26,605 nucleotides of DNA from a virus: IMG/VR virus record IMGVR_UViG_3300023301_000081, positions 1-26,605 of that record; one strand, written 5' to 3'. The first letter of the stretch is position 1; every line of letters begins with the position of its first letter. The notes under the pieces were generated by a model, which did no database searches, was not told where the DNA came from, and saw only the letters and a list, made by a program, of their open reading frames with translations. Positions 9,633-26,605 of the stretch are shown here, in pieces. The position numbers and the translations under genes are program-made.

Positions 9633-9635
9633 ACA

Positions 9636-10958: not shown

Positions 10959-10980
10959 TATTAACATAAATTTTATAATA

Positions 10981-11184
10981 ATGGCAAAGCAAAAAATTAA
11001 AATTAGAGACATTAAAAGATCCCACGTTAGATCTCATTTATTAGGGTTTCATCCATTTTTAAAAAAAGAGTTTAGGCCTATTAAAGCCTCTGAGCTCCAG
11101 AGTAAAAAAGTATATGAGGAGATTTTCCCAGGAGAGGAATTTACCGCCTGGAAACTAAAGGCTATTTATGAGTTTCAAAAGTAG
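10981..11184 (+). CDS. Small basic hypothetical protein (67 aa)
   Basis: A 67-residue basic protein (MAKQKIKIRDIKRSHVRSHL at the start, 'EEFTAWKLKAIYEFQK' at the end). It starts 22 nt after the terminase stop and overlaps the next gene by 17 nt, so it is part of the late operon. No motif is recognised. The genes could in principle be joined by +1 frameshifting because the downstream frame is +1, but no slippery site is evident. Confidence 0.65.
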   Translation: MAKQKIKIRDIKRSHVRSHLLGFHPFLKKEFRPIKASELQSKKVYEEIFPGEEFTAWKLKAIYEFQK

Positions 11185-11803
11185 ACAGCGCTACAGATCT
11201 AAAGCCGATATACCATATTTTCAACTATTCGATTTTTCGGAGGTTATAGAGGATAAGGACATAGAGTTTACGGCCGCGGAGACTATGAGAGTATTTAATC
11301 CGGAGAGCCTGGAGCGTTTCTCTGAGGCTTTAATTACAGCCGGGCCTGTTAGTTTTAGATTTAAGTTTAAAATAGATCTAGCCTTTAAATCCGCCGCTAG
11401 ATTTATAGACGCGGATACCTATTTTATGGAGGGCGCCTATAAAGATTTTTTAAAAACTGTATTAAAGCCGGTTATATTCTTTAAAAGAATTAACTTTGAT
11501 AAAATAACCCTAGCGGAGGCGGAGTATATAATCTCTAAATTTGCGGAGTTTAAATACGATCTTAAAAATAAATATGAGTATCTATATAATCCTCCTATTA
11601 GAGCCGGATCTAATGTTATGAGCGCTGGGGCTATAGAGAGGGAGGCCTTTTCTGAACATTACGGTCCATATATAGAAATGGTTTATATACTTTGTAAGGG
11701 AGATTTTACTAAATTTGAGGAGATCATAGCCTGGGATCTAAATAGATTTTTATATCAGGCGGAGTATTTAATTAGAAAACGAGATACTGAAAATATAAAA
11801 TAG
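11168..11803 (+). CDS. Hypothetical late protein (211 aa)
   Basis: A soluble, mostly helical 211-residue protein with many aromatic and charged residues (ADIPYFQLFDFSEVIEDKDI; FAEFKYDLKNKYEYLYNPP). Its end, 'CKGDFTKFEEIIAWDLNRF', then LYQAEYLIRKRD, vaguely recalls the C-terminal helices of tail assembly chaperones, but the gene is not next to the tape measure and has no frameshift partner. It overlaps the 67-aa gene by 17 nt and precedes the tail-terminator-like gene by 5 nt. A virion assembly role is likely from position only. Confidence 0.6.
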   Translation: MSFKSRQRYRSKADIPYFQLFDFSEVIEDKDIEFTAAETMRVFNPESLERFSEALITAGPVSFRFKFKIDLAFKSAARFIDADTYFMEGAYKDFLKTVLKPVIFFKRINFDKITLAEAEYIISKFAEFKYDLKNKYEYLYNPPIRAGSNVMSAGAIEREAFSEHYGPYIEMVYILCKGDFTKFEEIIAWDLNRFLYQAEYLIRKRDTENIK

Positions 11804-11808
11804 TAACT

Positions 11809-12264
11809 ATGGCTAACGAGATATCTAAACTAAATAACTGGATCCTGGAGGAATACTCCAAAAATAACCTGGTAAATACTTTGTCTGTAGTCCCTACAGA
11901 GGTCCTGGATATGAATAAAGCTAATATATATCCGCTTGTTAATGTAGATATGACTAACTCTGTAGTAGAGGATCAGGTGATAATAGTCTATTTTACCATG
12001 ACAGTCCTACAGCAAAGAGATACTAGACCGGTTAAAACGGACTCTAAATTAATGGAGGAGGATAACTATTTAGATAATTTAAACGAGACTCATTCCATAG
12101 CCCAGCGTTTTATTAACGTTTTATTAATGCAAAATAACGATGAGATTATAACAATAGACAGCCTATCTAACCTTAAATTTTTAAAACAATGGAGGGGAGG
12201 ATTATTAGACGGCGTACAATTTACTATTCAATTAGCAATACCTAATACTGGCCAAAGTTGCTAA
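11809..12264 (+). CDS. Tail terminator / tail completion-like protein
   Basis: A 151-residue protein with a helix at the start, a central strand pair (QVIIVYFTMTVLQQRD), the segment 'DNLNETHSIAQRFINVLL', and a final beta strand 'LLDGVQFTIQLAIPN'. This alpha-beta layout, with the 'N-x-T-x-x-I-A-x-R-F' helix and closing strand, resembles phage tail terminator proteins that cap the tail tube. The neighbour after it is an HK97-gp10-like protein, the usual partner in head-tail joining regions. Its TAA overlaps the TTG start of that gene. The call is by pattern and context. Confidence 0.45.
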   Translation: MANEISKLNNWILEEYSKNNLVNTLSVVPTEVLDMNKANIYPLVNVDMTNSVVEDQVIIVYFTMTVLQQRDTRPVKTDSKLMEEDNYLDNLNETHSIAQRFINVLLMQNNDEIITIDSLSNLKFLKQWRGGLLDGVQFTIQLAIPNTGQSC

Positions 12265-12650
12265 CAGAGGTAGAGATACGAGCTATAGGCGCTAAGATCG
12301 TAACAAAATCTAAGCGTACCGCCAGAGTAGATACTGGAGCGTTAAAGCGATCTATATCTTTTAGCTACGTCCGTAGCGTTATGACCTTTAGGGAGCTGTT
12401 CTATGGACAGTATGGTACTAACTCAGAGCTAGAGGATAACGCCGCGGCTATGGTGCCTAGAGGTATAGAGTGGAAAATAGTTTATACAGATTTTGGAGGA
12501 TCCGTTACGGAGGTAGGTAGGACTAGAGCTGGTAGAGCTACGCAAAGATCCGTTTTAAGTAATATAACTAGCGGAGTCTCTAATAATATAAAGGCATTAA
12601 TCGCAAAAACTAAAGCTAAAAAAATAGCAAATGGCAAAGCGGAGGAGTAA
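12258..12650 (+). CDS. HK97 gp10-like head-tail joining protein, TTG start
   Basis: A 130-residue protein whose 'KRTARVDTGALKRSISF' (about residues 18-34) is the signature of HK97 gp10-like proteins, which help join head and tail. The frame opens after a stop at 12243-12245, and its first ATG comes too late, beyond the signature. The TTG at 12258, overlapping the upstream stop (TTGCTAA), is therefore the only sensible start. That suggests reinitiation coupled to the preceding gene and modest expression. The rest is a beta-rich middle (GIEWKIVYTDFGG) and a basic C-terminus. It overlaps the next gene by 20 nt. Confidence 0.65.
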   Translation: MLTEVEIRAIGAKIVTKSKRTARVDTGALKRSISFSYVRSVMTFRELFYGQYGTNSELEDNAAAMVPRGIEWKIVYTDFGGSVTEVGRTRAGRATQRSVLSNITSGVSNNIKALIAKTKAKKIANGKAEE

Positions 12651-12960
12651 AGTACAAATAGACGCGGACCAGATTATAAAAAAACGGTTAAACGAGTTAG
12701 GAGAGAAAATCTATAACCAGGCCGTTAGGACATCTAGGAGAGATACAGGAGTTTTACAGGATACGCAAAACTACAGAGTAAAGCCGGATACTACTTTAAC
12801 TATGGCTCAGGTTTTTTATGGTAAATTTAACTATCCGGCCGGAGTAACCAGCGGCCCTAAAAATGCGTTAATGATCTCCGTCTTAGAGCATATCCCGGAA
12901 ACTACTAAAATTATAGTAACGGATATAACAGACGAACTATTAAAAAATTATACTAGATAA
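12631..12960 (+). CDS. Second HK97 gp10-like protein (109 aa)
   Basis: A 109-residue basic protein in which 'QAVRTSRRDTGVLQDTQNYR' again shows the R-x-DTG-x-L pattern of HK97 gp10-like proteins, though more divergent. It starts within the end of the previous gp10-like gene (20-nt overlap, different frame) and is followed after 1 nt by the next gene. The pair may be tandem duplicates, one for head completion and one for tail completion, or may form a hetero-oligomeric ring. Confidence in the coding call is high; the family call is moderate. Confidence 0.6.
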   Translation: MAKRRSKVQIDADQIIKKRLNELGEKIYNQAVRTSRRDTGVLQDTQNYRVKPDTTLTMAQVFYGKFNYPAGVTSGPKNALMISVLEHIPETTKIIVTDITDELLKNYTR

Positions 12961-12961
12961 A

Positions 12962-14158
12962 ATGGCAATACCTACTACATTACCTACAGGAGATAGGACG
13001 TTAATAAATACAGTATCTCAAATTAAATTTTGTAACTCTCCTATTCATTTAAGACTACAAAACGCCGCGGAGGATACCTCTATAACCTCCGTAGCTGTTT
13101 ACCTTTGGATATGGAACGGAGCCGAAAACAAAGCTCTAGGAAAACCTAATTTTGTTTTGACTAAAAATAAGATTAGTAAATTCGATAACTATATTAGCCT
13201 CCAGATCCAGGACCAGATTAAATCCTATCTAGAAAATCCTTTAAATGCGCCTAATACCTACCAGCCTACATACTCTTTTAATGAGGTAGCGCCGCCGGCC
13301 ATTACAGGACTAGGAGTTTTTTACCAGGTCGTAGCGGATATAACCTCTACGGCTGGTACTATTCGTAATAATTACCCTACAAACTTTACTACTTTAGGGT
13401 ATCGCTGGAATTATGAACAAAACGCCGCGACAGGAAATAACGGAATAACCGCTAATGGATCTCTAGGTTTTTTAGGTACCGTTAATAAATGGTATAATCC
13501 TAAAATACATAATTATTTTTCTCAAAGTTTTAATCTGGCTAATCCTATAGCTGTAGCTACTAGCGCCAATATGATAACGACCGCTATAATAACTCCTCCG
13601 GCGGCGTTCAGTAGGTGCGCTACAGATCCTAGCCTATTAATATTTTTAAATAAACTGGGACTCTGGGAGACTTTTACGCCTCATGGTAAATTTACAGCCT
13701 CCTCCTCCATAACCTCAGAGACTACTAACAGAGCTTTTAGAGATCCGTCTACAGTAGATAACTCCTACTCTCACTCAAAACAGAGAGGAGCGCTAGACGT
13801 TTTACAATCTTATATGATTAATACAGGCTCATTAACTGAGGATATGGTAGAGACTGTAGAGCAAATTATATACAGCTCTAAAGTATATCTAATTAGATTT
13901 AAAGGAGATATACAAACCTCGGCGTTTTTAGGAGTTACTGTAGACAGTACGTTAATCTCTGTAGATAGCTTAAATATAACCGTAGACTCCGATACTGTAG
14001 GAGCGGATGATCTAGGATTTTTTAAAACATTCCAACAGATCCCAGTTACTATAAAAGACTCCGATTTTTTAAGAAAATCTAGAGTAAATGATAAAAATAA
14101 AATAGATTATAATATTATGCTGGAGGAGACTAATAACAAAATTAATAATATTAGATAA
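12962..14158 (+). CDS. Virion structural protein, probably tail-tip or baseplate associated
   Basis: A 398-residue beta-rich protein. The N-terminal part (IKFCNSPIHLRLQNAAEDTS; 'VAVYLWIWNG'; 'ISLQIQDQIKSYL') looks like an Ig/fibronectin-like beta domain of the kind seen in Bacteroidota phage tail proteins. The end, 'IPVTIKDSDFLRKSRVNDKN' followed by IDYNIMLEETNNKINNIR, also recalls tail proteins of these phages. There is no signal peptide or enzyme motif. It is sandwiched between joining proteins and the 743-aa tail protein with 1-nt gaps, so it is surely part of the late structural operon. A distal-tail or receptor-contact role is inferred, not shown. Confidence 0.6.
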   Translation: MAIPTTLPTGDRTLINTVSQIKFCNSPIHLRLQNAAEDTSITSVAVYLWIWNGAENKALGKPNFVLTKNKISKFDNYISLQIQDQIKSYLENPLNAPNTYQPTYSFNEVAPPAITGLGVFYQVVADITSTAGTIRNNYPTNFTTLGYRWNYEQNAATGNNGITANGSLGFLGTVNKWYNPKIHNYFSQSFNLANPIAVATSANMITTAIITPPAAFSRCATDPSLLIFLNKLGLWETFTPHGKFTASSSITSETTNRAFRDPSTVDNSYSHSKQRGALDVLQSYMINTGSLTEDMVETVEQIIYSSKVYLIRFKGDIQTSAFLGVTVDSTLISVDSLNITVDSDTVGADDLGFFKTFQQIPVTIKDSDFLRKSRVNDKNKIDYNIMLEETNNKINNIR

Positions 14159-14159
14159 T

Positions 14160-16391
14160 ATGGCTACATTAATTACAGGCGTATATGTTTTATTCTTAGA
14201 GGAGTTTATAAAATTGGACCTCCATAGCGATGAGTCTATATTAATGAGATATACGACTAAGGATCTACAGCAATTATCTAAAATATTCTCTCCTTATTCT
14301 AAAGATTTTACATTTCCGGCCAGCTCTAAAAACCGGGCGGCTTTTGGTTTCTTTGGAGATACTGACGTAGTAAAAGTTAATCCGGAGTCTAAATTTATAG
14401 CTAAAATATATATAGCCGGGATTTTAAAAGATACTGGTTTTATACAGCTCTCAGATATAGGCTACAGAAAAGGCGCGCCTACAGATTTTACCGGTAGTTT
14501 TAGTACGTCTATGACAAATTTAAAAGATAGGATAGGAGACGATCTAATAACAGATCTAACGGAGGAGGGGTTATTTATAGACTGGAGCCCAGCCAATGTT
14601 TTAAACCTAATGAGAGGCGCGCAAAATACAGCCGTAGACGGAGTGGCCGTTTCTTATTTTGTCCCTTTAATATCCAGTAATAGAGTCCTAGCCTATGATG
14701 CTAACCCGGACTCCTTAATAAAAGATAACGTAGCTTATGATTTATACCAGCCTAGCAATAGTACTATAGAGACTAGCGAGCTCCGGCCGGCCATGTCATT
14801 CTCTACGATCATAGAGTTAATTAAAAACAAATATAATCTAGACGTAGTAGCGCCGCTGGACCTTAGAAAGGAATATACAGAGTTAATAATCTGGTGTAAT
14901 TCAGAGGTATTTTTTAGCCCTGTCTCCTCTCTATTAACCGTATACAATCCCTTTGGACCTATACAGGCTAGGGACACTAAAAACGAGTCCGGGATCCCGG
15001 ATCCTAAAAAGTATAATCCTGTAGTAAACATTACAGATAATAGTTTTACAGTAACTAAACGAGCTTTGCCATTTACTAACTCTAATGAGTATACAGACTT
15101 TTTTAATTTTAAAATTAATTTAGGTAACGTTTTAGTAACAGGATCTACTACAGAGGCTCCAGCAATTAACGTAAAAATTATAGAGAGCGGATCCGATCAA
15201 ATATTAATATCTAAAAATTTTGAACTCCTGGAGTTTTTTACCGGATCTTTTTACCTAGCGGCGGAGCTCCAAATATTAGACAGCTATTTTACTAACGACG
15301 TTATAAACTTTTACGTAGAGGTAGAATTAAACGCGCCTATGTCCTGGAGTAATTGCCATTACGAGGTAAATTTTAAATACTACGACGGTAAAACCGGCTT
15401 TTTTAGCCGTAAAGAGTACGCAACATATTACTATACTAGCGTTTTTAACTATAACTCCGCCGACGTAGGAGGGACTAGGATAGATCTTTTTAGGTGTTTA
15501 CCTAAAGTTAAAGTAGTAGATTTTTTAACCTCCTATTTTAAGGCTTTTAATATCTCTGTTTTTGATACTAACCCAAACGATGAGCGCCTTTATTGGCTAA
15601 CTCCGGAGGATATACAGACGGATCTACTCCCCTACTCAAAAACTACGCTAGACTATACGCCGTATTTAAACTTTAAATCTTTTAAAAAGTCTACTAGCGG
15701 AGACTACAATTATTATAATTTTAAACACTTTAAAAGTGAATATAAATCTAATGTAGATTATTTATTAGCTAAAGGCCTGGAGTACGGACAGGCTGTTTAT
15801 CCTTTAGTAAAGCCTAAAGATCCTATAGAGTTTACTGTAGAGACTACGTTTTCTCTAATGGTGCCAGTATTGCTAATAGGGACTAGCGACGTTATAACCT
15901 ATTACGGATTTACAGCTAGTAAACCAGAGATCCTAGAAACCGGAGAGAGCCGCTACGAGCCTAATTATGGAGAGCTAACTATATTTTATAACGGAGGGTC
16001 TAAGGCTATAGTTAATCCTTTATCCTTTAATAACCAGCCGTTAAATAGTTACATGAAAGTATTACCATTTAATACGGAGAGTAAATCCTTAGCGTTTTCA
16101 GTATTAAAGGAGTTAGGCGTAGAGTATCCAGAGAGCCTGTACAAAAGATTTTATAAACAGCAAACAGAGCGCCTACTAGATCCTAATGTCCTCTCCCAGG
16201 AGTACGAGATAACGCTACCCCCTAACGAAATCTATTTAAACGAGGCCGCCACTATACAGGGAGGAGGCCTAACGCCTAAAGGCTTTAGATTACAAAATGA
16301 TATAATACTAGGAGAGGATTTATTCAGTATCTTAGACGCTACAATAGACTACACTACAGGAAAAACTAAAATAACTCTTTTAAATTATTAA
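14160..16391 (+). CDS. Large tail protein (tail tip/baseplate type, 743 aa)
   Basis: A 743-residue beta-rich protein. The N-terminal segment, 'LDLHSDESILMRYTTKDLQQ' then 'SKIFSPYSKDFTFPASSKN', is a pattern found at the start of Bacteroidota phage tail proteins: L-D-L, then S-K-x-F-x-x-P-x-S-x-x-N. Several modules of strands follow, with many Tyr, Asn and Asp residues and no transmembrane segment. It directly precedes the tape measure gene (2-nt gap), a place where siphophages often keep tail-tip hub or tail-associated lysin genes, although here the order is reversed. No lysozyme or peptidase motif is visible. The exact role is inferred. Confidence 0.65.
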   Translation: MATLITGVYVLFLEEFIKLDLHSDESILMRYTTKDLQQLSKIFSPYSKDFTFPASSKNRAAFGFFGDTDVVKVNPESKFIAKIYIAGILKDTGFIQLSDIGYRKGAPTDFTGSFSTSMTNLKDRIGDDLITDLTEEGLFIDWSPANVLNLMRGAQNTAVDGVAVSYFVPLISSNRVLAYDANPDSLIKDNVAYDLYQPSNSTIETSELRPAMSFSTIIELIKNKYNLDVVAPLDLRKEYTELIIWCNSEVFFSPVSSLLTVYNPFGPIQARDTKNESGIPDPKKYNPVVNITDNSFTVTKRALPFTNSNEYTDFFNFKINLGNVLVTGSTTEAPAINVKIIESGSDQILISKNFELLEFFTGSFYLAAELQILDSYFTNDVINFYVEVELNAPMSWSNCHYEVNFKYYDGKTGFFSRKEYATYYYTSVFNYNSADVGGTRIDLFRCLPKVKVVDFLTSYFKAFNISVFDTNPNDERLYWLTPEDIQTDLLPYSKTTLDYTPYLNFKSFKKSTSGDYNYYNFKHFKSEYKSNVDYLLAKGLEYGQAVYPLVKPKDPIEFTVETTFSLMVPVLLIGTSDVITYYGFTASKPEILETGESRYEPNYGELTIFYNGGSKAIVNPLSFNNQPLNSYMKVLPFNTESKSLAFSVLKELGVEYPESLYKRFYKQQTERLLDPNVLSQEYEITLPPNEIYLNEAATIQGGGLTPKGFRLQNDIILGEDLFSILDATIDYTTGKTKITLLNY

Positions 16392-16393
16392 AA

Positions 16394-18238
16394 ATGGCCG
16401 GAGAAAACCAGGATATAGAGCAAAAAATTAAATTAAATTATGATACTAACGCGGAGGCCGCGGCTAAGGAAGTAAATAAATTAGACGGATCTATAGATAA
16501 AGTAAATACCTCCCAAACGGAGGCTGTTAAATCTAATAAAAAAGTAGAGAAATCTCAAAAAGACGCTACAAAATCCTCTAAAGATCAAAAAAAGGGACTG
16601 GAGGATATGCCGGGGCCGATAGGTGGAGTAGTTAGCGGATTCAAATCTATGCTAAAGACCATGTGGGCTATAGTTGCTAACCCTGTAGGCTTAGTATTGA
16701 TAGCTATAGTAGGTAGTTTAGCGCTATTATTCAAAGCATTTACCTCAACAAAAGCCGGAGCGGAAAAATTCGACCAGGTTATGTCTGGGATAGGAGCTAC
16801 TATAGACGTACTCCGGGACCGGGTTTTAAAAGTTGCTAGCGCTATAGGTAAATTTTTTAGCGGAGATTTTAAAGGCGCTGTAGCTACAGGGAGGGAGGCC
16901 GTCTCTGGTTTTGGGGACGAGGTAAAAAAGGAGTTTGAGATAGCCGCCAATGCTACAAAATCACTACAGGAGGTTGTAGATGCTATGCGAGGCTTGGGAG
17001 TTGCTAGGGCAAAATTAGACAGAGATTTAGCGGAATCAGAAAGGATATTAACAGATGTAAACGCGACCTATGCGGAAAAGAAAAAAGCCTTGGAGGATGT
17101 TTCTACAGCTGAGGCAAAGCAAACTAAGCAGGAGCTAGCTAATGCCGAGAAAAAACTAAAAGCTATACAGGATCAAAACGCGCAAAGTGATTCTAGCGCG
17201 GAGGCTTTAGATGCTGAGGCGGAGGCACAAATAGCGGTATTTGCATTACAGCAAAAGTCCTCAGAAAATTTACGTAAAGTTGCGGATTTTAATAAGACCT
17301 TAGCTGGTGAGGAGGAATCTCGCAGAAAGACAATAGCAGACGCCGCCTCCGCCAGAGCAAAAGTAAAAGCCGATGCCGACGCCGCGGAGGCAAAGCGGAT
17401 ACAAGATTTAGCAACGGAAAAAATAAATACTGAGGCCGCCGCTACCAGAGCCATACAAGACCTGCAGGACAAAACGGAGGAGGAAAAATTAGCTAGGCAA
17501 AAACAGCGAGATTTAGATGAGCTAGAAGCCATTAAGCAAAAAGGAATAAATATAGAGGAACTTCTAAAATTAAACAGCGAAAAGTATAATATTTTAGAGG
17601 ATGAGTTAATAGAAAAGCGCCGACTAGAAAAAGAGGAAAAAGATAAAAAAGCCAAGGAAGATAAACTAGCGGCCGACAAAAAACAAGCGGAGGAGGAGGC
17701 AGCAATAGAGACAGCTAAGCTAGATCAGCAAAAAGCTATTGAAGATGCTAAGTATGATTTATTAGACCAAGGCTTAGGAGCGTTAAAAAATATTTTCGGC
17801 AAAAATAAGAAAATACAAAAAGGTATTTTAATAACGGAAAACGCTGTAGCGCTCTCTAAATTAACTATGAACACTATAGAGGCTGTTAGTAAAGATAACG
17901 CCGCCTCTCCTTTAACGTTAGGTATGCCATGGAGTGGAATACATTTAGCTACCGGAGCTATAGGAGCCGCTAATATTATAGCATCTACAGCTCAGGGATT
18001 AAAAGCTTTAGGAGGAGGGAGCGCCGGAACTGCTCCAAACTTAGGAACCGTAGGAGGAGGAGGAGGTGCTAGTGCTGCTCCGTCCGTAGCGTTTCAATCC
18101 TCTAGCGAAAATCAGATCGCGACGTCTATAGCGGATAATACTAACGCTCAACCTCCAGTAGAGGCTTACGTAGTTTCTAGTAGTATGACTACGGCCCAGG
18201 CGTTAGATAGAAATAAAATTGAAAGTAATAGTATATAA
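16394..18238 (+). CDS. Tape measure protein
   Basis: A 614-residue protein with the tape measure layout. A charged N-terminal coil comes first. A hydrophobic stretch at about 90-117 (WAIVANPVGLVLIAIVGSLA) can cross a membrane during DNA ejection. Long Ala/Lys/Glu coiled coil covers about 200-455. A second, weaker hydrophobic part follows, then a Gly/Ala-rich linker (GGGSAGTAPN; GGGGGASAAP). The end, 'AYVVSSSMTTAQALDRNKIE', is typical of Bacteroidota phage tape measures. At the usual 1.5 angstrom per residue it would set a tail of roughly 90 nm. No chaperone pair with frameshift is seen next to it. The gene ends where a promoter-like element and the secreted protein gene begin. Confidence 0.85.
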   Translation: MAGENQDIEQKIKLNYDTNAEAAAKEVNKLDGSIDKVNTSQTEAVKSNKKVEKSQKDATKSSKDQKKGLEDMPGPIGGVVSGFKSMLKTMWAIVANPVGLVLIAIVGSLALLFKAFTSTKAGAEKFDQVMSGIGATIDVLRDRVLKVASAIGKFFSGDFKGAVATGREAVSGFGDEVKKEFEIAANATKSLQEVVDAMRGLGVARAKLDRDLAESERILTDVNATYAEKKKALEDVSTAEAKQTKQELANAEKKLKAIQDQNAQSDSSAEALDAEAEAQIAVFALQQKSSENLRKVADFNKTLAGEEESRRKTIADAASARAKVKADADAAEAKRIQDLATEKINTEAAATRAIQDLQDKTEEEKLARQKQRDLDELEAIKQKGINIEELLKLNSEKYNILEDELIEKRRLEKEEKDKKAKEDKLAADKKQAEEEAAIETAKLDQQKAIEDAKYDLLDQGLGALKNIFGKNKKIQKGILITENAVALSKLTMNTIEAVSKDNAASPLTLGMPWSGIHLATGAIGAANIIASTAQGLKALGGGSAGTAPNLGTVGGGGGASAAPSVAFQSSSENQIATSIADNTNAQPPVEAYVVSSSMTTAQALDRNKIESNSI

Positions 18239-18240
18239 TT

Positions 18241-18260
18241 AAAAAAAAGCATTACTTTTA
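18241..18260 (+). promoter_or_regulatory. A8 / TACNTTTA promoter-like element upstream of the secreted protein gene
   Basis: Eight A's (18241-18248), 4 nt, TACTTTTA (18253-18260), then TAATC. The TTTATAATC stretch is identical to that upstream of the primase gene (5998-6006). The following ATG is 33 nt further. Together with the terminator at 18674 it would make the gene a separate transcription unit. Confidence 0.4.
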
Positions 18261-18292
18261 TAATCTAATTTAATTAATTAAACGTTTTTTTT

Positions 18293-18649
18293 ATGAAAAA
18301 ATTACTAGTATTATTTTTGTTTTTTAGCCTAGCGTTTACGCTAACAGGCTTTAGTCCTCCAGATAAGGACCAGGGCCAGGTTACAATTATCAAAGCGGAT
18401 CTAAGTATAGACCAGGCTATAACGGCTACGGCTGTTTATAGTGTATCTAGTACGGAGATATGTGAAAGTTTAGATTCTATGACCTCTACGATTTATAAGG
18501 AGGATCATTTATCTAGTTTACCGGAGTATAATTATAGGAATATATATAAATACTATACGTATACAGAGGCTCCTAAAAATTTATACTTAAAAAATAACAA
18601 ATATCTAAAAAAAATAAATTACTTTTATAAAGATTTTCATTCTGTGTAA
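18293..18649 (+). CDS. Small secreted protein of unknown function (moron)
   Basis: A 118-residue protein starting MKKLLVLFLFFSLAFTLTGF, a clear Sec signal peptide (two Lys, about 15 hydrophobic residues, cleavage likely near residues 18-22). No lipobox cysteine is present, so it should be released to the periplasm rather than lipidated. The mature part is about 95 residues, Tyr/Lys/Ser-rich (YNYRNIYKYYTYTEAPKNLY) and unrecognised. It has a promoter-like element in front, its own strong terminator behind, and interrupts the structural genes between tape measure and protease. These are marks of a moron: an inserted gene acting on the host, for example in superinfection exclusion or envelope change. 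A lysis accessory is possible. Confidence 0.7.
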   Translation: MKKLLVLFLFFSLAFTLTGFSPPDKDQGQVTIIKADLSIDQAITATAVYSVSSTEICESLDSMTSTIYKEDHLSSLPEYNYRNIYKYYTYTEAPKNLYLKNNKYLKKINYFYKDFHSV

Positions 18650-18673
18650 GTTTATTATTGGTTAATTATTCTT

Positions 18674-18712
18674 AAAATCCGTTAGTTTTGCTAAATTCTA
18701 ACGGATTTTTTT
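18674..18712 (+). terminator. Rho-independent terminator after the secreted protein gene
   Basis: AAAATCCGTTAG (18674-18685) pairs perfectly with CTAACGGATTTT (18698-18709) over a 12-nt loop, followed by more T's. It is a strong intrinsic terminator that ends the moron transcript and probably also reduces readthrough from the tail genes. Confidence 0.85.
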
Positions 18713-18729
18713 ATTTTTTAGAATATATT

Positions 18730-18750
18730 AAAAAAAAATAACTACATTTA
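18730..18750 (+). promoter_or_regulatory. A9 / TACNTTTA promoter-like element upstream of the protease-scaffold gene
   Basis: A run of nine A's (18730-18738), 4 nt, TACATTTA (18743-18750), then the ATG 24 nt further at 18774, the same distance as at the primase gene. It lies right after a strong terminator, where a new promoter is needed for the capsid genes, and this strengthens the promoter reading. Confidence 0.45.
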
Positions 18751-18773
18751 CGTATAAAAGTTTATAAAATAAT

Positions 18774-19979
18774 ATGAAAGTTTATGAGTTAAAGCTCCAA
18801 AAAGGAGGTAAAGGCGTTTTTAGGATGAGTACTGTAAAAGGTCCGGCCATAGAGGACACGCTTTTATACTTTAAAAAGGAAACTAAAGACATTTCTTTTT
18901 TTGCCGATGAGGAAAAACGTATATTTTACGCTCCGGCTATGATCCCTAACCTAAAAATTTATCGGAATAATGTAAACGGAGAGCCGGCGGAGGTATTTTA
19001 TACAGCGGAGACTGTAGCGGAGGCTCAGATAAACTATTTTAGGCAGAACGGAAATAGATCTAACAATATAAACCACGCTCTAGAGGATATAGAGGGCGTT
19101 TTCCCTTTTGAAAGTTGGATAATACAGGATTTTGCTAGCGATAAAGCTAAAACTTTAGGTTTTAACCTACCTAACGGTACCTGGATTATGGGTTATAAAG
19201 TAGATAATAACGAAGTTTGGAAAAATATTAAAGAGGGCGACCTAGACGGCCTATCCATAGAGGCTACAAATTTAGAACACATATTTAAAAATGATATAAC
19301 GATGAGTAAAAACAAAAAAAATGTTTTCGCATTTTTCAAAGAGGGCCTAGACGCGCTTTTAACTAATGCGGAAAAATTCGAGGGAGAGATCGCGGAGGTA
19401 TCTAAGTGGTGGCAGACCGTAGTTAATACTACTTTCGCTATCGGAGATACTGTAGAGCGTAAACCTTTGGACGGAGAGACCGAGGCTAAACCGGTAAACG
19501 CCGGAGAGTTTGAGTTAGAGGACGGACGAAGAATTTTAACAGATAGCGAGGGCGTTATCCGTTATATTTTTGATGCGCCGGCCGGAGCTACAGATCCTCC
19601 AGCCGCTACAGAGGTTATGGCCGGAGAGACTCCAGAAACTCCAAAGGAGACGGAGGAGGAAAAAAAGGCTAGATTAGCTAAAGAGGCAGAGACAGCCGCG
19701 GCCGCTACAGATCCTCCAGAGCCTCCAGAGCCTCCAGAAAAAGAGGCGGAGTTAATGGATGAGATAATCTCCTTAAAACAGACCATAGCAGAGCTAGAAG
19801 CTGACAAAGTAAAAGAGGCTACAGATCTAGAAAAAATGAACGCCGAGTTGGTAGCTATGAGAAAACAAACTCCAGCCGCCGCTAGTATACCTCTAACTCC
19901 TACGATATCCCAGCATACAGAGGAGAAAAAATACGAGGATATGAGTAACTACGAAAAAACTATTTTTAACAGATCTTAA
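18774..19979 (+). CDS. Prohead protease (XkdF type) fused to a scaffold-like domain
   Basis: A 401-residue protein. Residues about 1-172 match the XkdF / Peptidase_S78_2 family: 'FYAPAMIPNLKIYR', 'VFYTAETVAEAQINYF', 'NINHALEDIEGVFPFESWII' (likely catalytic H101), 'GTWIMGYKVDNNEVW', and 'LDGLSIEA' (likely nucleophile S161). Residues about 177-401 are acidic and Ala/Pro/Glu-rich, with the repeat PPEPPEPPE and a coiled coil (ELMDEIISLKQTIAELEADK), as expected for a scaffold. An in-frame ATG at 19302 (residue 177, MSKNKKNVFAFFKEG) sits exactly at the domain border and could start a separate scaffold, as in lambda C/Nu3. The capsid gene follows after one small gene. Confidence 0.8.
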   Translation: MKVYELKLQKGGKGVFRMSTVKGPAIEDTLLYFKKETKDISFFADEEKRIFYAPAMIPNLKIYRNNVNGEPAEVFYTAETVAEAQINYFRQNGNRSNNINHALEDIEGVFPFESWIIQDFASDKAKTLGFNLPNGTWIMGYKVDNNEVWKNIKEGDLDGLSIEATNLEHIFKNDITMSKNKKNVFAFFKEGLDALLTNAEKFEGEIAEVSKWWQTVVNTTFAIGDTVERKPLDGETEAKPVNAGEFELEDGRRILTDSEGVIRYIFDAPAGATDPPAATEVMAGETPETPKETEEEKKARLAKEAETAAAATDPPEPPEPPEKEAELMDEIISLKQTIAELEADKVKEATDLEKMNAELVAMRKQTPAAASIPLTPTISQHTEEKKYEDMSNYEKTIFNRS

Positions 19980-19988
19980 AACTTTATC

Positions 19989-20228
19989 ATGTCAGAAGAA
20001 AAAAAAGAAAAAAAACAAACTCCAGCCGAAATACAAGCCAAAAAAAACGCGGCCGAAATTAAAGAGAATGGATTTTTAAATCCGTTTAGCCCTGGAGTAA
20101 CCTATCCAGCCTATCTAGCTACTTTAAAAGCGGATGAGACAGTAGAAAAAAATTTAAAAGGTAAAATATCTAACGCGGAATTAAAATGGCTGTTAGATGA
20201 TTTACAAAACCTAAAAAAAGATAAATAA
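19989..20228 (+). CDS. Small charged protein between scaffold and capsid genes
   Basis: A 79-residue Lys/Glu-rich protein. It has a highly charged helical start (MSEEKKEKKQTPAEIQAKKN), a hydrophobic centre (NGFLNPFSPGVTYPAYLATL), and a helical end (ISNAELKWLLDDLQNLKKDK). It lies 9 nt after the protease-scaffold stop and 2 nt before the capsid gene, so it is probably co-translated with capsid proteins. It may be a minor head or assembly protein, but I recognise no defined family. Confidence 0.65.
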   Translation: MSEEKKEKKQTPAEIQAKKNAAEIKENGFLNPFSPGVTYPAYLATLKADETVEKNLKGKISNAELKWLLDDLQNLKKDK

Positions 20229-20230
20229 TT

Positions 20231-21271
20231 ATGAGTGTAGTTTTTAGCGGTACTAAGTTACCACAAAGCGAAATTAAAGACATTCAATCTGAGATTTACT
20301 CAGACTGGGGGACCTTTAGAGAAAAAGACGTAAATATCCAGGAGGGCCACAAGTCCGGTACTGAGGTTTACGAGAGTAAAGTAACGGTAAATAACAAAGC
20401 CTATTCTAGTGGACCGGTAGAGGCCGACGGTACGGCGGAGTACGCTGTAGACAGATCTACTGTAAACTTAGTTAAAACTATGTTTAGTGACGTTATAGAT
20501 TATACTACGCTATTAGATACGCGTTTTGAAAAATCTATGGCTAAAGGAGCATTTAAAACCGTATCTACTGAGTTTGATAACGCCGTATTACAGTATATTA
20601 CTCCGGCTATCTCTCAGAGTATGGAAGAAATGACATGGGACGGTGCTACGGAAGCTCAACAAATAGCTATTGCTGCTTTAACTCCAGGCGCTGGGCAAGG
20701 ATCAATTAGCGCGGCGGCCCAAACTTTAGCGGCGGCTATGCCTACAAAATTAGTAAACAGCTTACCGGCTACTATTTTATATAACGACTCTCGAAGTAAA
20801 GCGACTCCAGGAGCCGGTTTAGGAGACTATGTTAAAGTAGCGGCTACTGCTTATACGGCGGCCACAATAGCGGCGGAGTATACTAAAATGTTTAATGGAA
20901 TTTTGCCAAAGGTTTTAAATGATAAATTAAATCCGCCTGTAATTTACGCTCCTTTAGCGGACCGTCAATTAATGCTGACAGCTAATAACTCCGTAGGAGC
21001 GGCCAGTAATAAAAACTTTTTATTTCCTACAGAGGATTTAAACTCTAAATGCTTCTACCAGGGAGTAGAGGTTAAATTTAAGCCTTTAGTAGGTTTTCAT
21101 ATTATTAGCCCAGCTAAATATTTAATATTGTTATTTGATTTAATCAATGATATGAATATCCTAGAGACTGGAAAAATGCCAGCCGGAGCGGATCAGTACT
21201 ACTATAAAAATGTACAGGCGTTCACTACCTGGTGCACAAACCAGAGATATATTACTCTTTACGGAGGATAA
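20231..21271 (+). CDS. Major capsid protein (HK97-like)
   Basis: A 346-residue protein placed directly behind the protease-scaffold genes, of normal size for an HK97-fold capsid protein. Features fit: an extended N-terminal arm; a segment with 'FEKSMAKGAFKTVSTEFDNA' as the spine-helix candidate; Ala-rich A-domain helices (ISAAAQTLAAAMPTKLVNSL); 'PPVIYAPLADRQLML'; and a beta-rich end with 'FKPLVGFHIISPAKYLILLF'. No removable delta domain is obvious, so scaffold function probably lies in the upstream protein. It ends with a hairpin 15 nt downstream that may stabilise the abundant message. Identification rests on context and fold-like pattern. Confidence 0.8.
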   Translation: MSVVFSGTKLPQSEIKDIQSEIYSDWGTFREKDVNIQEGHKSGTEVYESKVTVNNKAYSSGPVEADGTAEYAVDRSTVNLVKTMFSDVIDYTTLLDTRFEKSMAKGAFKTVSTEFDNAVLQYITPAISQSMEEMTWDGATEAQQIAIAALTPGAGQGSISAAAQTLAAAMPTKLVNSLPATILYNDSRSKATPGAGLGDYVKVAATAYTAATIAAEYTKMFNGILPKVLNDKLNPPVIYAPLADRQLMLTANNSVGAASNKNFLFPTEDLNSKCFYQGVEVKFKPLVGFHIISPAKYLILLFDLINDMNILETGKMPAGADQYYYKNVQAFTTWCTNQRYITLYGG

Positions 21272-21285
21272 GATACTAACAAAAT

Positions 21286-21309
21286 CCTCCTAGGTTAATC
21301 CCTGGGAGG
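21286..21309 (+). terminator. Hairpin after the capsid gene, weak terminator or mRNA stabiliser
   Basis: CCTCCTAGG (21286-21294) pairs with CCTGGGAGG (21301-21309), 9 bp with one G-U pair and a 6-nt loop. Only three T's follow before A-rich sequence, so it would be an inefficient terminator. Partial termination or 3' protection of the capsid mRNA is likelier. Confidence 0.6.
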
Positions 21310-21328
21310 TTTAAAAAATATATAGATA

Positions 21329-21886
21329 ATGAGTTGTGTAACACTAACAAAAAGTCGTAAATTAAACTGTATCTCTAAAATGCCCGGAGTTCGAGCTATA
21401 GGGATCCTACCATTTGACGGAGTTAATAGAATTTTAAAGACAGCTACAGGCGTAGTAACTTTAGTCCCAGCTGTAGCGGATCTAGACGTTACTATAGCTA
21501 GATTTGAGCTAAAAAATACTACTACTAATTTTATAGAAAATGGTATTTCCGGAGGGGATAACAGATCTACAGGAGTTACCGGTAATATCCCTATAATTTT
21601 AAATGTACCTAGCGGCGGAGACGTAGAGTTAAATATTTTAGTAGAGGAGCTGTTAAAAGGAGAGGTAGTTTTATTTTTAGAAATGAACGACGGTACTATA
21701 AAAATAGCCGGATCTCAGTTAGGCGCTTTAGCTATAACAGCCGACGACCAAACAGGAGGTACTATAGGAGATTTAAACGGCTATACAATTACGTTTAATA
21801 CTTTAGAGCCAGATTTTAGCAGAGGATATATACTAACCGAGCCAGCTCTAACAGAGTACGCGGCGGCTATAATGCCATACGTATAA
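21329..21886 (+). CDS. Probable major tail tube protein
   Basis: A 185-residue beta-rich protein with a plug-like N-terminus (LTKSRKLNCISKMPGVRAIG) and a C-terminal stretch 'GSQLGALAITADDQTGGTIG', 'DLNGYTITFNTLEPDFSRGY'. The last part resembles tail tube proteins of Bacteroidota siphophages, where a 'G-D-L-N-G-Y-x-x-T-F' strand pair closes the barrel. It lies between two hairpins, right after the capsid gene, consistent with separate, high-level expression. A capsid decoration protein is the main alternative. Confidence 0.65.
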   Translation: MSCVTLTKSRKLNCISKMPGVRAIGILPFDGVNRILKTATGVVTLVPAVADLDVTIARFELKNTTTNFIENGISGGDNRSTGVTGNIPIILNVPSGGDVELNILVEELLKGEVVLFLEMNDGTIKIAGSQLGALAITADDQTGGTIGDLNGYTITFNTLEPDFSRGYILTEPALTEYAAAIMPYV

Positions 21887-21906
21887 AAAATTAATAAAAA
21901 TCTAAT

Positions 21907-21934
21907 AAAACCTCTCAATATGAGGGGTTTTTTT
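21907..21934 (+). terminator. Rho-independent terminator after the tail tube gene
   Basis: AAAA, then CCTCTC (21911-21916), a 5-nt loop, GAGGGG (21922-21927) and seven T's. The stem is 6 bp with one G-U pair, extended by A-T pairs. It is a good intrinsic terminator that would separate the abundant capsid and tube messages from the portal genes. Confidence 0.85.
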
Positions 21935-21947
21935 ATATATTAAAATA

Positions 21948-22277
21948 ATGAAAGTACTTTTTTTAGATACTCCTTTAGTCTTTTATTTGATCCCTAGAGT
22001 ATATCCAATAATAACGGATACATTAACGCTATATTTGCGTAATGAGATAACAGATAAAACTATAACTCCGGCTATAACTTTTACGATCTCAGAAAAATTA
22101 AAAATTACTATACCAGCCCAGCCTACAGATTTTAAAATTCAAAATAAATACGAAGTAGAATTAAAAAACGGATCTAGCGTTATTTATAGAGGCAAAATTA
22201 TTATCTTAGCAGAGGGGACAGACATACAAAATTATGAATATAGCTCTCAGATAAATGCAAAATTCAAATATAAGTAA
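21948..22277 (+). CDS. Hypothetical beta-rich late protein (109 aa)
   Basis: A 109-residue protein with repeated short strands (TLTLYLRNEITDKTI; AITFTISEKLKITIPAQ; KNGSSVIYRGKIIILAEG) that suggest a small beta sandwich. It has no enzyme motif. It begins 14 nt after a terminator T-run and overlaps the portal gene by 23 nt in another frame, so its translation is likely coupled to the portal. A head or neck accessory role is possible from position; nothing more can be said. Confidence 0.65.
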   Translation: MKVLFLDTPLVFYLIPRVYPIITDTLTLYLRNEITDKTITPAITFTISEKLKITIPAQPTDFKIQNKYEVELKNGSSVIYRGKIIILAEGTDIQNYEYSSQINAKFKYK

Positions 22278-23436
22278 TAACGAGGTACATATTTTTAGAA
22301 ACGAAGTACAAAAATACTCCGCTTTTCAGCCTATAGATATTAAACCTACTCTTGGTAGAGATTGGATTTTAAACGGTCCTAACGGAAATAATTATAAAAC
22401 ATATAAGGACGCGTACGACGATAGCCCGACTAACGCCTCTATTATTAACGCTTTTGTTAAATATATTTTTGGAGAGGGGTTAGTAGATACGTCTACAGAT
22501 AATATAGATCTCAGTATCTACCTCTCAGAGGAGGATCAGCTGTTAATGTGTTACGACTTTAAAATCCACGGCGGCTACTCTGTAACTGTCATCTGGGACT
22601 CTAACGCTGGAGACAAAAAACCTTTAAAAATAGAGTATATCCCTATTTATAAATTAGGCGTTAACTATATTTTAAAGACAGGAAAAATAAATGGATACTG
22701 GTATAGCTACGACTGGACTAAAATTTTTACATATAGACCAGTAAACTATCCAATTTTTACAGGGAGATATCAAGGTAATGACCTGGAGATCCTGGTAGTC
22801 CGTAGACCTACGGCGGAGCCATTTTTTCCGGTACCGGATTATATATCTGGTATACCATGGGCCCAGGTAGAGGGACAGCTAGGTAACGCCGCTAAAAACC
22901 ATTTTATTAACGCTATGTCGGATATAACGTTAATAAATTATAATCAAGGGAGACAGTCTACTCCAGAGGTTTCTAGAGAGGAGGCGGATAAAGTTAGAGC
23001 TAAGGTAGTAGGCTCGGATAATCAGTCTACAGTTTTAGTATCTTTTAACGACGGTCCGGAGGAGGCTGTAGTCATAGACCGGATCTCTCCTCCAGAGTTA
23101 AACCAGCAAAACGTATTTTTTAGCGAGGAGGCGGAGCGAAAATTAATAGTAGCGCATAGCGCGCCGCCTATTTTATTTAGCGGATCCAATACTGGAGGAG
23201 GTTTTAGCTCTAACGCGGACGAAATAGAGGTAGCTACTAACTCACTATATAGGAGACATATAAATCCGGATAGAAATGTAATTCTAAAAGGCCTAAAAAA
23301 AGTATTTAAACTAATAGACAGCTCTATAATTTTAGATTTTAAAGACTTTAAAGAGGAGGCGCTAGAGGAGACTCCAGTAGCTACAGCTCCGGAGCCTGTT
23401 AAATCTAACTTTTTTAAAAATCCATTTAAAAGATGA
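22255..23436 (+). CDS. Phage portal protein
   Basis: A 393-residue protein with portal hallmarks: 'ASIINAFVKYIFGEGLVD' near the start, a wing region with 'GINGYW'-like tyrosine strands, 'VVRRPTAEPFFPVPDYISGI' followed by a long helix (EGQLGNAAKNHFINAMSDIT), and the crown-side part 'VAHSAPPILFSGSNTGGGFS' with 'ATNSLYRRHINPDRNVI'. The P-P-I-L-x-G-like loop followed by a helix returning to the stem is usual in portals. It forms the 12-fold ring through which TerL pumps DNA. Its place far from the terminase, after capsid and tube genes, is unusual. It overlaps both neighbours (23 nt upstream, 4 nt downstream). Confidence 0.8.
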   Translation: MQNSNISNNEVHIFRNEVQKYSAFQPIDIKPTLGRDWILNGPNGNNYKTYKDAYDDSPTNASIINAFVKYIFGEGLVDTSTDNIDLSIYLSEEDQLLMCYDFKIHGGYSVTVIWDSNAGDKKPLKIEYIPIYKLGVNYILKTGKINGYWYSYDWTKIFTYRPVNYPIFTGRYQGNDLEILVVRRPTAEPFFPVPDYISGIPWAQVEGQLGNAAKNHFINAMSDITLINYNQGRQSTPEVSREEADKVRAKVVGSDNQSTVLVSFNDGPEEAVVIDRISPPELNQQNVFFSEEAERKLIVAHSAPPILFSGSNTGGGFSSNADEIEVATNSLYRRHINPDRNVILKGLKKVFKLIDSSIILDFKDFKEEALEETPVATAPEPVKSNFFKNPFKR

Positions 23437-23912
23437 TAACATTATTTTTAAAAGAAAATGATATCCCGGCTTTAACCTCATTTAGCGGAAATATAGACGC
23501 GGATAGTCTAAAGCCTCACATATTTACAGCTCAAACTAACGATATAAAGAGGATTTTAGGGACAGATTTATATAATAAAATGCTAGCAGACTACGAGGCG
23601 GACGCTTTAACAGGATTATATAAGACTATATACGAGGATTATTTAGTCCCTATGGAGGTTTATTTTGCCTGTATGTATTATATGACCTTTGGAGGATCTA
23701 AAATTAATAATAACGGCGTAACTAAAGTAGCTTTTGATAACGGCGTAGCCCTTAGCGAGTCAGAAACTAACCGGCTAATAGGAGTATTTAGACAATTAGC
23801 CAATAATAACGAGTTGTTTTTTTATGAGTATATGAATACTGTAGAGGTCCTGGAGTATAATAGGTCCTCCGATGATGAGTATAATAATAATCCAGTAATA
23901 CCATGGTATTAA
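23433..23912 (+). CDS. Head-tail connector / adaptor protein (DUF6712-like)
   Basis: A 159-residue helical protein starting with 'KENDIPALTSFSGNIDADSL', then 'TAQTNDIKRILGTDLYNKML', the pattern of Bacteroidota phage connector proteins that attach under the portal. A helix rich in aromatic residues (YLVPMEVYFACMYYMTFGGS) and an acidic C-terminus follow. ATGA overlap with the portal stop supports linked expression, and portal plus adaptor is a standard neighbourhood. The family call is by memory of the pattern. Confidence 0.6.
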   Translation: MITLFLKENDIPALTSFSGNIDADSLKPHIFTAQTNDIKRILGTDLYNKMLADYEADALTGLYKTIYEDYLVPMEVYFACMYYMTFGGSKINNNGVTKVAFDNGVALSESETNRLIGVFRQLANNNELFFYEYMNTVEVLEYNRSSDDEYNNNPVIPWY

Positions 23913-23913
23913 A

Positions 23914-26605
23914 ATGAGTAAAATAACTATAAATACCTCACTACCAAACGACGGACTGGGGGACGCACTTAGAAACGCCTTTAATAGTACGAACGCAAAC
24001 TTTACGGAGCTCTACGATCAAAAAGTAGATAAGGTAATCGGCCAGGGATTAAGTGATAATAACCTAACGGACCTATTATTAACTAAAATAAACAATATAG
24101 AAGATCTAGCCGCCGTAAATATACAAAGTGACTGGACTCAAAATAACGATACCGGAGCGGATTATATAAAAAATAAACCGGAAGTATCTACGATCCCTAT
24201 AATGCAACCTATAGGAGTAGATTTTAGTTTTCCTCTAAACACTAAAACAGATATAGACTCCCTTTTCGGAGCTTTTTTAATTAATGATGCGGAGAGCGGT
24301 ATTATATTAAACTCATCTACTCCAATAACAGGAGACGGAGGCCATAGTAAAGTTATGTTTGCTGTTTTAGCTGGGACAATTACCACAGGATCTCTGACTA
24401 TAACCGGCACATCTGTAGACAGAAATACAAAAGTAGAAACGCCTGGAGATACAGAAATAATCCCAATAGCTGGTTTATCGGTTAACGCATCTACGGTAGA
24501 CGCTAACGGTAATACAGTCTATAATTATACAGATAACTATATATCCTCCAAATGGTTTAGAGGTTCTTTAACTTTCTCTACTACGGATTTAAATTTAACT
24601 GAAATAAGAATAGCTCAGGTTGCTTTTGAACAATTTAACTCTATAGGCCCTATAATTATAGATGAGTTAGACGCCACTTATAAGATATCTAATACGCTGG
24701 CTAAAATGGACGCGTATTTATACGCTGTGACTGTAGTAGGATCTAAAGCTAACGTTAAATTAATAGCTGACATACATCATGTAACTGGAGGTTTTGTAGA
24801 TGCGGCTTTTAGGAAAAGACAGGCGGATATAGGTAAGGATTTGAATACAGCTACAGACGGTATATTTGTGGATTTGTTTTTAGCTCCTACAAGTCAACAA
24901 TATTTTAATAGTTTTATTTTAAAGGTACGGGGTCAAAGAATACAATACATAGACGTTTTATTAGATAATACTTTAATAGTTGATACAATTACCTACGGTG
25001 AGAATTTAAACGCTGGAGAGGTAGTTTATTTAGATCCAGACGGTAAATATTATAAGGCCGATAATACAGATCCTTTAACCTCAACTACGCAAATTAGACT
25101 AATATCCCAAAGCGGACTAATAGGGGACGAGAAAAAATGTATTAAATCCGGAACCTATACAACTAGCGGAGCTATAACTCCAGGAAATGAGTATCTAAGT
25201 ACTAGCGGAACGTTTACGGCTGTTTTGCCTACGGCCCCTAGTGATATAGTGAGGATTTTATCTACGGCAATAAGCACAAATAAAAGATATTTCAATCCCT
25301 CCTCTTCTTGGGTTACAGCCGACGGCTCAAATGTAAACGGAGTTAGTCTAATAGCCGGAGGCGGTAAAACATTTGCCGACGCTTGGAGCTTAGGAGGCTT
25401 AGACGTTAGAGCCTATGCTACGAACGCCTTAATATTAGACCAATATTATACAGGAGCCCCTCAAACGATAACGTTAAACGCCGCCTCCGCTACTTTAGGG
25501 CAGAATAGATACATAGCAATAGTTATGGATACGAGCGGAGTTATTAGCGCCCAGGACGGAGTTACCGGAGCTGTAGCTATACCTCCTACAGTAGATACAG
25601 ATAACTATTATTTAATTAGATATTTATTTTTAGTAGGGCAAGCTACAGTTCCTACAGATCAGAGCGGAAATACTACTAGTGTTTACTCCTTAGTATACGA
25701 TGAGACAGGAACGGAGCCGTTAGAGAGTAATGTAACGACATCTACGCCGTCTATAGTTGCAAATACAGCTGCATCTCCTTTTGGAGGCGTAGGTATTAGG
25801 GCTGTTAATTTGGCTAAACAATCCGCCGATAAAATTTATTTTAACTATACGACAAAAAAATTATTTTCAGAGTTTACAGATCTTAATTTAGGATTAAAAA
25901 CCGACATAGGCAATAGCTCTTTAAAGATATATGTGAATTTTTTTAACGATAATGTAAATGTAGGTGGTTTAGCCGTAGCTAGTGGTTTATATGGTTACTT
26001 AGGCTTGGCTACAATCCCTCAAAATATTAGCATACCTAAAGATTATTTTATTTTTAATGGTTTGGAGTTTGATAGAATTGTAATTTTTTTATACTCTCCT
26101 TATTCCACAATCCCCGGCTATTGGATAGACGACGTAAAACTATTAAATGCCTACGCTCCTAATCCTAATACGCCTATATTTATACAAAAACAGGCGGACT
26201 GGATACAGGCGGATATTAACGCTGTAGATTTTATTAAAAATAAGCCTGATTTAGTAACACTTTCAAAAGATATAAATCAAGGATCCCACGGATTTATTGT
26301 AGGAAATGCGATAAGACATAATGGCACAATATGGGTAAAAGCACAAGCAGATAGCTTAGCAAATTCTGGAAGTATTGGAGTTGTAGGAGTTGTTACAGAC
26401 GCTAATAATTTTTCTTATTCATTCGGTGGGTTTTTAGTTCCAGGAACTTGGATTAATGGCACTTCTTATTTTTTATCACCAGCGGTTGCGGGTGGAATAA
26501 TTGTAGAACCTACCTATACAGTTGGGCAAGTTAGGGAATTTATAGGAACAGGAACACCGAACGGTTTACTAATAGAATTAGACTTAGGAGACGAAATAGT
26601 TGCGG
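23914..26605 (+). CDS. Large tail fibre / receptor-binding protein (partial, C-terminus beyond right edge)
   Basis: An open frame of at least 897 codons runs from the ATG at 23914 (1 nt after the adaptor stop) to the window end with no stop. The start, 'GDALRNAFNSTNANFTELYD', is the virion-attachment pattern of Bacteroidota phage fibres. A 19-residue joint motif occurs twice: QSDWTQNNDTGADYIKNKP (71-89) and QADWIQADINAVDFIKNKP (760-778). Between them lie beta-rich domains. After the second joint comes 'HGFIVGNAIRHNGTIWVKAQ', a module common near fibre ends. Base use after about 26280 differs (GAA rather than GAG, GCA, CAC), suggesting a swapped tip. It should bind the host surface receptor. 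Confidence 0.8.
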   Translation, partial: MSKITINTSLPNDGLGDALRNAFNSTNANFTELYDQKVDKVIGQGLSDNNLTDLLLTKINNIEDLAAVNIQSDWTQNNDTGADYIKNKPEVSTIPIMQPIGVDFSFPLNTKTDIDSLFGAFLINDAESGIILNSSTPITGDGGHSKVMFAVLAGTITTGSLTITGTSVDRNTKVETPGDTEIIPIAGLSVNASTVDANGNTVYNYTDNYISSKWFRGSLTFSTTDLNLTEIRIAQVAFEQFNSIGPIIIDELDATYKISNTLAKMDAYLYAVTVVGSKANVKLIADIHHVTGGFVDAAFRKRQADIGKDLNTATDGIFVDLFLAPTSQQYFNSFILKVRGQRIQYIDVLLDNTLIVDTITYGENLNAGEVVYLDPDGKYYKADNTDPLTSTTQIRLISQSGLIGDEKKCIKSGTYTTSGAITPGNEYLSTSGTFTAVLPTAPSDIVRILSTAISTNKRYFNPSSSWVTADGSNVNGVSLIAGGGKTFADAWSLGGLDVRAYATNALILDQYYTGAPQTITLNAASATLGQNRYIAIVMDTSGVISAQDGVTGAVAIPPTVDTDNYYLIRYLFLVGQATVPTDQSGNTTSVYSLVYDETGTEPLESNVTTSTPSIVANTAASPFGGVGIRAVNLAKQSADKIYFNYTTKKLFSEFTDLNLGLKTDIGNSSLKIYVNFFNDNVNVGGLAVASGLYGYLGLATIPQNISIPKDYFIFNGLEFDRIVIFLYSPYSTIPGYWIDDVKLLNAYAPNPNTPIFIQKQADWIQADINAVDFIKNKPDLVTLSKDINQGSHGFIVGNAIRHNGTIWVKAQADSLANSGSIGVVGVVTDANNFSYSFGGFLVPGTWINGTSYFLSPAVAGGIIVEPTYTVGQVREFIGTGTPNGLLIELDLGDEIVA

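Follow-up and report, generated by a model that had tools for sequence, protein, structure and literature searches.

The window (the whole 26,605-base virus record analysed here) belongs to a siphophage of Flavobacterium-type hosts. A gene for a 118-aa protein, situated where its tail genes give way to the head genes, is well supported as a moron, that is, as optional cargo at this position. It looks like cargo because relatives carry different genes or none in the same place. We think it probable that its product, predicted to be exported, acts on the cell envelope.

The gene and its predicted product

The ORF starts with ATG and is coding, with phage-like codon usage: its log-odds value is +0.32, where 12 phage genes reach +0.34 to +0.55 and the five alternative frames score -0.34 to -0.95. 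Its G+C content is 30.5% versus 36.8% for the window, with other phage genes going down to 28.5%. The predicted N-terminus, MKKLLVLFLFFSLAFTLTG|FS, satisfies a simple Sec rule that was drawn up only after the proteins had been looked at; among 632 further ORFs (60-400 aa) from the collected loci, 15 do so too. A lipobox with a cysteine at the cleavage site is absent, the sole cysteine being residue 57. By the simple rule, the protein would thus be of the Glo type, with a Sec signal predicted to be cleavable and no lipid anchor.

The spacers flanking the gene measure 54 and 124 nt, whereas those elsewhere in 9312-26604 range from -23 to 61 nt, most genes of this block adjoining directly. A preliminary description of this DNA had proposed a 118-aa ORF between tail and capsid genes, a Sec signal peptide and a break in an otherwise tight late operon; the ORF and the break were confirmed, and the signal peptide is supported by the simple rule. 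The features of the locus are listed in Table 1.

Table 1. Features of the tape-measure/protease junction in the window, and hairpin copies in related loci
Feature	Position	Strand	Details
Tape-measure-like gene, upstream edge of slot	16394..18238	+	Position, length, weak PHROGs matches
13-nt direct repeat ATTACTTTTATAA, upstream copy	18251..18263	+	Deletion end point; L002 junction
Weak Bacteroidetes -7-like box TACTTTTA	18253..18260	+	40 nt 5' of ATG; consensus as excerpted from PMC6847099
Predicted exported-protein cargo gene, 118 aa	18293..18649	+	Predicted signal peptide ~residues 1-19; single cysteine residue 57
13-nt direct repeat ATTACTTTTATAA, downstream copy	18618..18630	+	Within last codons; L002 junction
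Intrinsic terminator	18674..18712	+	12-bp outer stem, T-tract; folding versus shuffles; kept in L008, L009
XkdF-like protease gene (PF14550), downstream edge of slot	18774..19979	+	Pfam
RNA hairpin, copies in gap	L045:6932-6959, L035:6930-6957, L050:2243-2270, others		
RNA hairpin, further copies	L017:351-378, L032:972-999, L037:119-146		

A near-identical contig that lacks the gene

Over 7870 columns, contig L002 matches the window at 99.53% identity. In this contig the end of the tape-measure gene runs on to the protease gene, and the 118-aa gene is missing through a clean deletion of 367 bp. A comparison of the same locus among relatives had been proposed in the preliminary description, and the gene proved absent from one at 99.5% identity. 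One copy of the 13-nt direct repeat remains at the L002 junction; of 2000 shuffles, 24 produced a word of at least 13 nt common to both flanks. In the window, the upstream copy includes the promoter-like box TACTTTTA, and the downstream copy aligns to non-coding DNA 3' of the gene in two relatives, L008 and L009.

Besides the deletion, L002 and the window differ by 29 other mismatches, so that L002 represents a different strain. The contig begins only ~80 bp left of the junction. Since bases 1-93 of L002 agree with the window, up to and through the repeat, and 29 other sites differ, we took the deletion as real and disfavoured an assembly artefact. An insertion in the window, rather than a deletion in L002, was also disfavoured, given the secreted ORFs of L008 and L009 in the same place and orientation, although this homology has weak sequence support. 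L002 suggests that growth without the 118-aa gene is possible.

The same junction in relatives

Relatives were gathered via the portal, protease and tape-measure genes, which yielded 103 loci in addition to the window. Both edges of the junction were visible in 62 loci, among them L001, a fragment of the window itself; L002 does not count among the 62, as too little of its tape-measure gene is present. At 90% DNA identity, the 62 loci fell into 45 groups, window included. No ORF of at least 60 aa was found in 24 of the 45 groups, with gaps of 29-304 nt, and cargo ORFs were present in the other 21, with gaps of at least 412 nt. The name moron, given to the gene in the preliminary description, agrees with this variable cargo in 21 of 45 groups, with the absence of the gene from L002 and with its own terminator.

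Within the cargo of 8 of these 21 groups we predicted an exported protein, of three unrelated kinds. Sense-strand Sec proteins occur in a lytic-looking lineage formed by the window, L009 (116 aa) and L008 (126 aa). Antisense lipoproteins were found in L015, L023/L064, L028 and L065 (29-47% identity to L015), and a lipobox is present in this cargo of the prophage relatives. The third kind is an antisense Sec protein in L071/L072, which form one group. The remaining cargo, in 13 of the 21 groups, is cytoplasmic; part of it is presumably HNH-like, beside small cytoplasmic proteins.

By the simple rule, 9 of the 18 cargo ORFs of 100-200 aa would be exported, compared to 8 of 310 other ORFs (Fisher p about 9e-9, which overstates the enrichment because the nine exported ORFs represent only three sequence families). 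This count omitted 16 hand-listed near-duplicate loci, among them L037, which is a 90%-identity group of its own, and it kept both L071 and L072, though they are one group at 90% identity.

The antisense lipoprotein family of the prophage-type relatives (L064:6290-6715, L015:6242-6679, L028:6265-6684 and L065:6318-6749, all on the minus strand) has a relative in a Flavobacterium genome (L134:1381-1797, minus strand). The neighbours of the latter are not phage-like, so lipoprotein cargo may have been exchanged by phages and their hosts. A structure model of the lipoprotein cargo was predicted to be all-beta (pLDDT 76.5). Its matches were scattered over lipocalin- and FABP-like barrels, with Z up to 8.2, and none in the PDB or viral libraries reached a Foldseek E of 0.001; with matches so spread, no function could be read from the model. 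In the same junction, Nonlabens phage P12024L (L127) has eight small annotated minus-strand ORFs (record positions 33158-35521), none of them with an evident signal peptide. A 142-aa cargo ORF in L003 (2454-2882) matches the C-terminal part of a PHROGs portal family (E 1.7e-9) and stands apart from the portal gene.

Relation to the genes of L008 and L009

The genes of the window, L008 and L009 are alike in position, orientation, length and signal peptide. Full-length local alignments scored above all 2000 shuffles in all three pairs. Once the signal peptide was taken off, the local score of window and L009 was reached in 71 of 2000 shuffles and that of L009 and L008 in 53 (10 for end-to-end alignment), and the score of window and L008 was reached in 1203 of 2000. 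Based on these scores without the signal peptide, common descent is likely for the genes of the window and L009 and unproven for that of L008.

The L008 and L009 proteins end in TSGGLS(R/E)I, with a terminator directly after the stop codon (z -4.2 and -5.6). The window gene lacks both this end and the first terminator and continues into what is intergenic DNA in the other two, and for that reason the window copy may be damaged. The gene could accordingly be seen as a decaying remnant: an ancestral function, kept in L008 and L009, would have been lost by 3' truncation and fusion to formerly intergenic DNA, with a loss of the L002 type ahead. The missing end and adjacent terminator, the alignment of the last codons with non-coding DNA and the near-identical L002, already without the gene, would all fit such a course. 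But the frame is open, the predicted signal peptide is intact and the codon usage is that of active phage genes, and we therefore regard decay as unlikely, if still a serious competitor to an exported moron that functions at the envelope.

Promoter, terminator and downstream DNA

The Bacteroidetes -7 host consensus is given as TANNTTTG in the excerpted text of PMC6847099. The box in front of the window gene, TACTTTTA, ends without the G that is almost invariant there, and no TTG stands at the spacing to be expected, so that a promoter is weakly supported at this place. A consensus scan of the + strand around the start of the gene revealed no sigma-70-type site. That is, from the promoter-like element described earlier, a -7-like box with one mismatch remained, without a -33 element or a sigma-70-type site to go with it. 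Corresponding boxes stand 5' of the other sense cargo genes (TATATTTG in L009 and TATATTTA in L008). In 31 to 86 of 1000 shuffles (window, L008, L009), a full box of the TAnnTTTG kind appeared upstream, so such boxes carry modest weight by themselves. For the lipoprotein cargo, the match to TANNTTTG is exact in three of four loci, with one mismatch in L065, and a TTG lies 20 nt 5' of the box in three of the four.

The strong terminator of the preliminary description was recovered 3' of the gene: the segment 18674-18712 folds with -15.2 kcal/mol (z = -6.2), a value equalled by 0 of 200 shuffles. It was overlooked by a consensus scanner, presumably because its loop exceeds the scanner limit of 8.

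The DNA 3' of the gene (window 18618-18712; L008 ~6450-6545; L009 ~6310-6390) is conserved far better than the gene. In all three phages it contains a -7-like box, TTTATTGGTTAATT and the terminator stem, and it could give rise to a short RNA from a promoter and terminator of its own. This segment is untouched by the L002 deletion. Outside the phages of the window, L008 and L009, an exact pattern scan for it found no occurrence.

A covarying RNA hairpin at the junction

In 18 of the 45 representative loci, the gap between tape-measure and protease genes holds an RNA hairpin with a 6-bp stem, an invariant UGAAG and the loop GAAG[A/U][U/C]. It is placed 3' of a box of the TATATTTG type and 5' of a terminator. 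The stem covaries strongly: 108 of 108 cells are paired, 24 of them with changes on both sides. In L017 and L032, extra copies stand directly 5' of a tail gene; L018 has a weak one (E 0.28). Searched with the covariance model, the window gave no copy at E values up to 5, and the four loci searched against Rfam gave no match for the hairpin. The loop is reminiscent of lambda boxB, and on this resemblance the hairpin is a possible antitermination or operator site. It may merit more attention than the 118-aa gene.

Searches for homologues

No credible match to the 118-aa protein was obtained in Pfam, PHROGs, NCBIfam or PADLOC, and tblastn against 50,697 phage records returned no hit, in line with its earlier characterization as unrecognised; only L008 and L009 emerged as possible relatives, weakly matched. 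The sole Pfam match was DUF6558, a phage tail N-terminal domain, at E 0.039 and 14.4 bits versus a cut-off of 24.1. In scans of viral contigs, a three-row profile yielded nothing credible and the L009 protein retrieved only itself. Among 299 Flavobacterium genomes, the profile matched in 18 (best E 1.7e-4). Judged collectively, these matches were dismissed as signal-peptide noise, because all start within profile positions 1-3 and 11 of the 18 end by position 77. The AlphaFold2 model of the window protein (pLDDT 41) was too low in confidence for use, a sequence profile search of the PDB gave only matches of E 0.38 or worse, and Rfam had no match within the window. A literature search over titles and abstract openings, with subscription journals mostly outside it, returned no account of the gene or of a flavophage slot at this place.

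Phage context and lifestyle

The window comprises a replication block, a terminase (PF04466), tail genes, the tape-measure-like gene, the XkdF-like protease and a head block that includes the portal (PHROGs 33693). A large open ORF at its end is tail-fibre-like by position only. Of the named phages in the collection, Nonlabens phages P12024S and P12024L come closest, with terminases at 34.6-35.0% identity. A portal identity of 60-65% is seen in four prophages of named Flavobacterium genomes. No match to integrase, resolvase or HTH_3 was found in the records of the window, L008 and L009; integrases are present in those of L018 and L071. The end of the L009 record is an exact 127-bp repeat of its start, and we therefore took this record as complete, the only one of the three for which completeness is supported. 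Because of the missing matches and the complete L009 record, the lineage of the window, L008 and L009 looks lytic, like T5.

In at least ten relatives, very long ORFs 3' of the portal, at the tail-fibre location, open with Sec-like signal peptides, for example MKKILFLLLFTIASYGQ (L011:8496-11387, L019:12271-15330, L058:12333-15467, L055:12123-14306, L029:7967-9874 and others). Such signal peptides on ORFs in tail-fibre position are unexpected for virion proteins.

Possible function and comparison with known systems

Transcription during infection would proceed from the gene's own weak Bacteroidetes-type promoter and stop at the terminator 18674-18712. The small, non-lipidated protein would be exported by Sec to the periplasm and might act there on an envelope component that serves phage adsorption or DNA entry, whereby the infected cell could shut out rival phages. 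The preliminary description had suggested protection of the cell from further phages or an altered cell surface. By analogy with Llp, Glo, Ltp and Cor, exclusion appears the likeliest single role; we propose it tentatively, as a possibility short of an expectation.

A bolder proposal, which we hold to be improbable, is that a lytic flavophage lineage maintains, where tail genes meet head genes, a repeat-bounded slot reserved for exported exclusion proteins that change quickly. Recombination between the promoter-like repeats would excise the cargo cleanly and leave one promoter-like copy behind, and phages of one population would alternate between shielded and unshielded states.

A different envelope role, as lysis helper, inhibitor of envelope stress or of an enzyme, or secreted factor against competing bacteria, would suit a small, predicted secreted protein transcribed with the late genes. 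However, holin-like, secreted and transmembrane ORFs are clustered 3' of the tail fibres in L009, and for this reason we did not prefer lysis. "Lysis-like" is here a reading of sequence, as none of five ORFs of that region compared with Pfam had a match. Neither would a needed lysis part be absent from L002 and most relatives, and together these other roles seem quite improbable. A role in virion structure or assembly would fit the structural region, the late strand and the sub-cut-off DUF6558 match, but with a predicted signal peptide, absence from L002 and most relatives and a terminator between gene and head genes, this is very improbable.

An exported moron acting on the envelope would place the gene among exported cargo, a main route for phages to alter the envelope of the infected cell. 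With a fixed genomic slot named, such genes can be collected across lytic and temperate flavophages and tested as a set. If the cargo excludes phages, unknown flavophage receptors could be tested via their blockers.

The genes for Cor and gp15 are placed among tail genes. Cor of phi80 and N15 is described as an exclusion gene of tailed phages in the excerpted text of PMC11436027, and a title cited there calls the exclusion gene gp15 of HK97 a moron. The only link to Cor was a PHROGs Cor match to residues 1-49 of the L028 lipoprotein (E 0.12). TP-J34 Ltp is an exclusion lipoprotein whose secreted, non-lipidated form strongly blocks phages, according to passages of PMC3952083, and its target is the tape measure according to a title cited therein. 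Ltp belongs to the lysogeny module of a phage of Gram-positive bacteria and gave no sequence match; as an exported moron of ~140 aa it has its closest counterparts in the antisense lipoproteins of L015, L023, L028 and L065. Glo of the Vibrio phage K139 appears in the same passages (PMC3952083) as a soluble periplasmic exclusion protein. Glo belongs to a temperate phage; it is like the window protein in being Sec-exported (by prediction for the latter) without a lipid anchor. T5 Llp, according to PMC9586334, excludes phages by jamming the receptor from the periplasm, and it is encoded by a lytic phage. Llp is a lipoprotein and its receptor is FhuA, whereas the window protein has no lipobox, known target or sequence match to it; yet if our proposal holds, both would be small exported proteins of a lytic, or lytic-looking, siphophage that act at the envelope.
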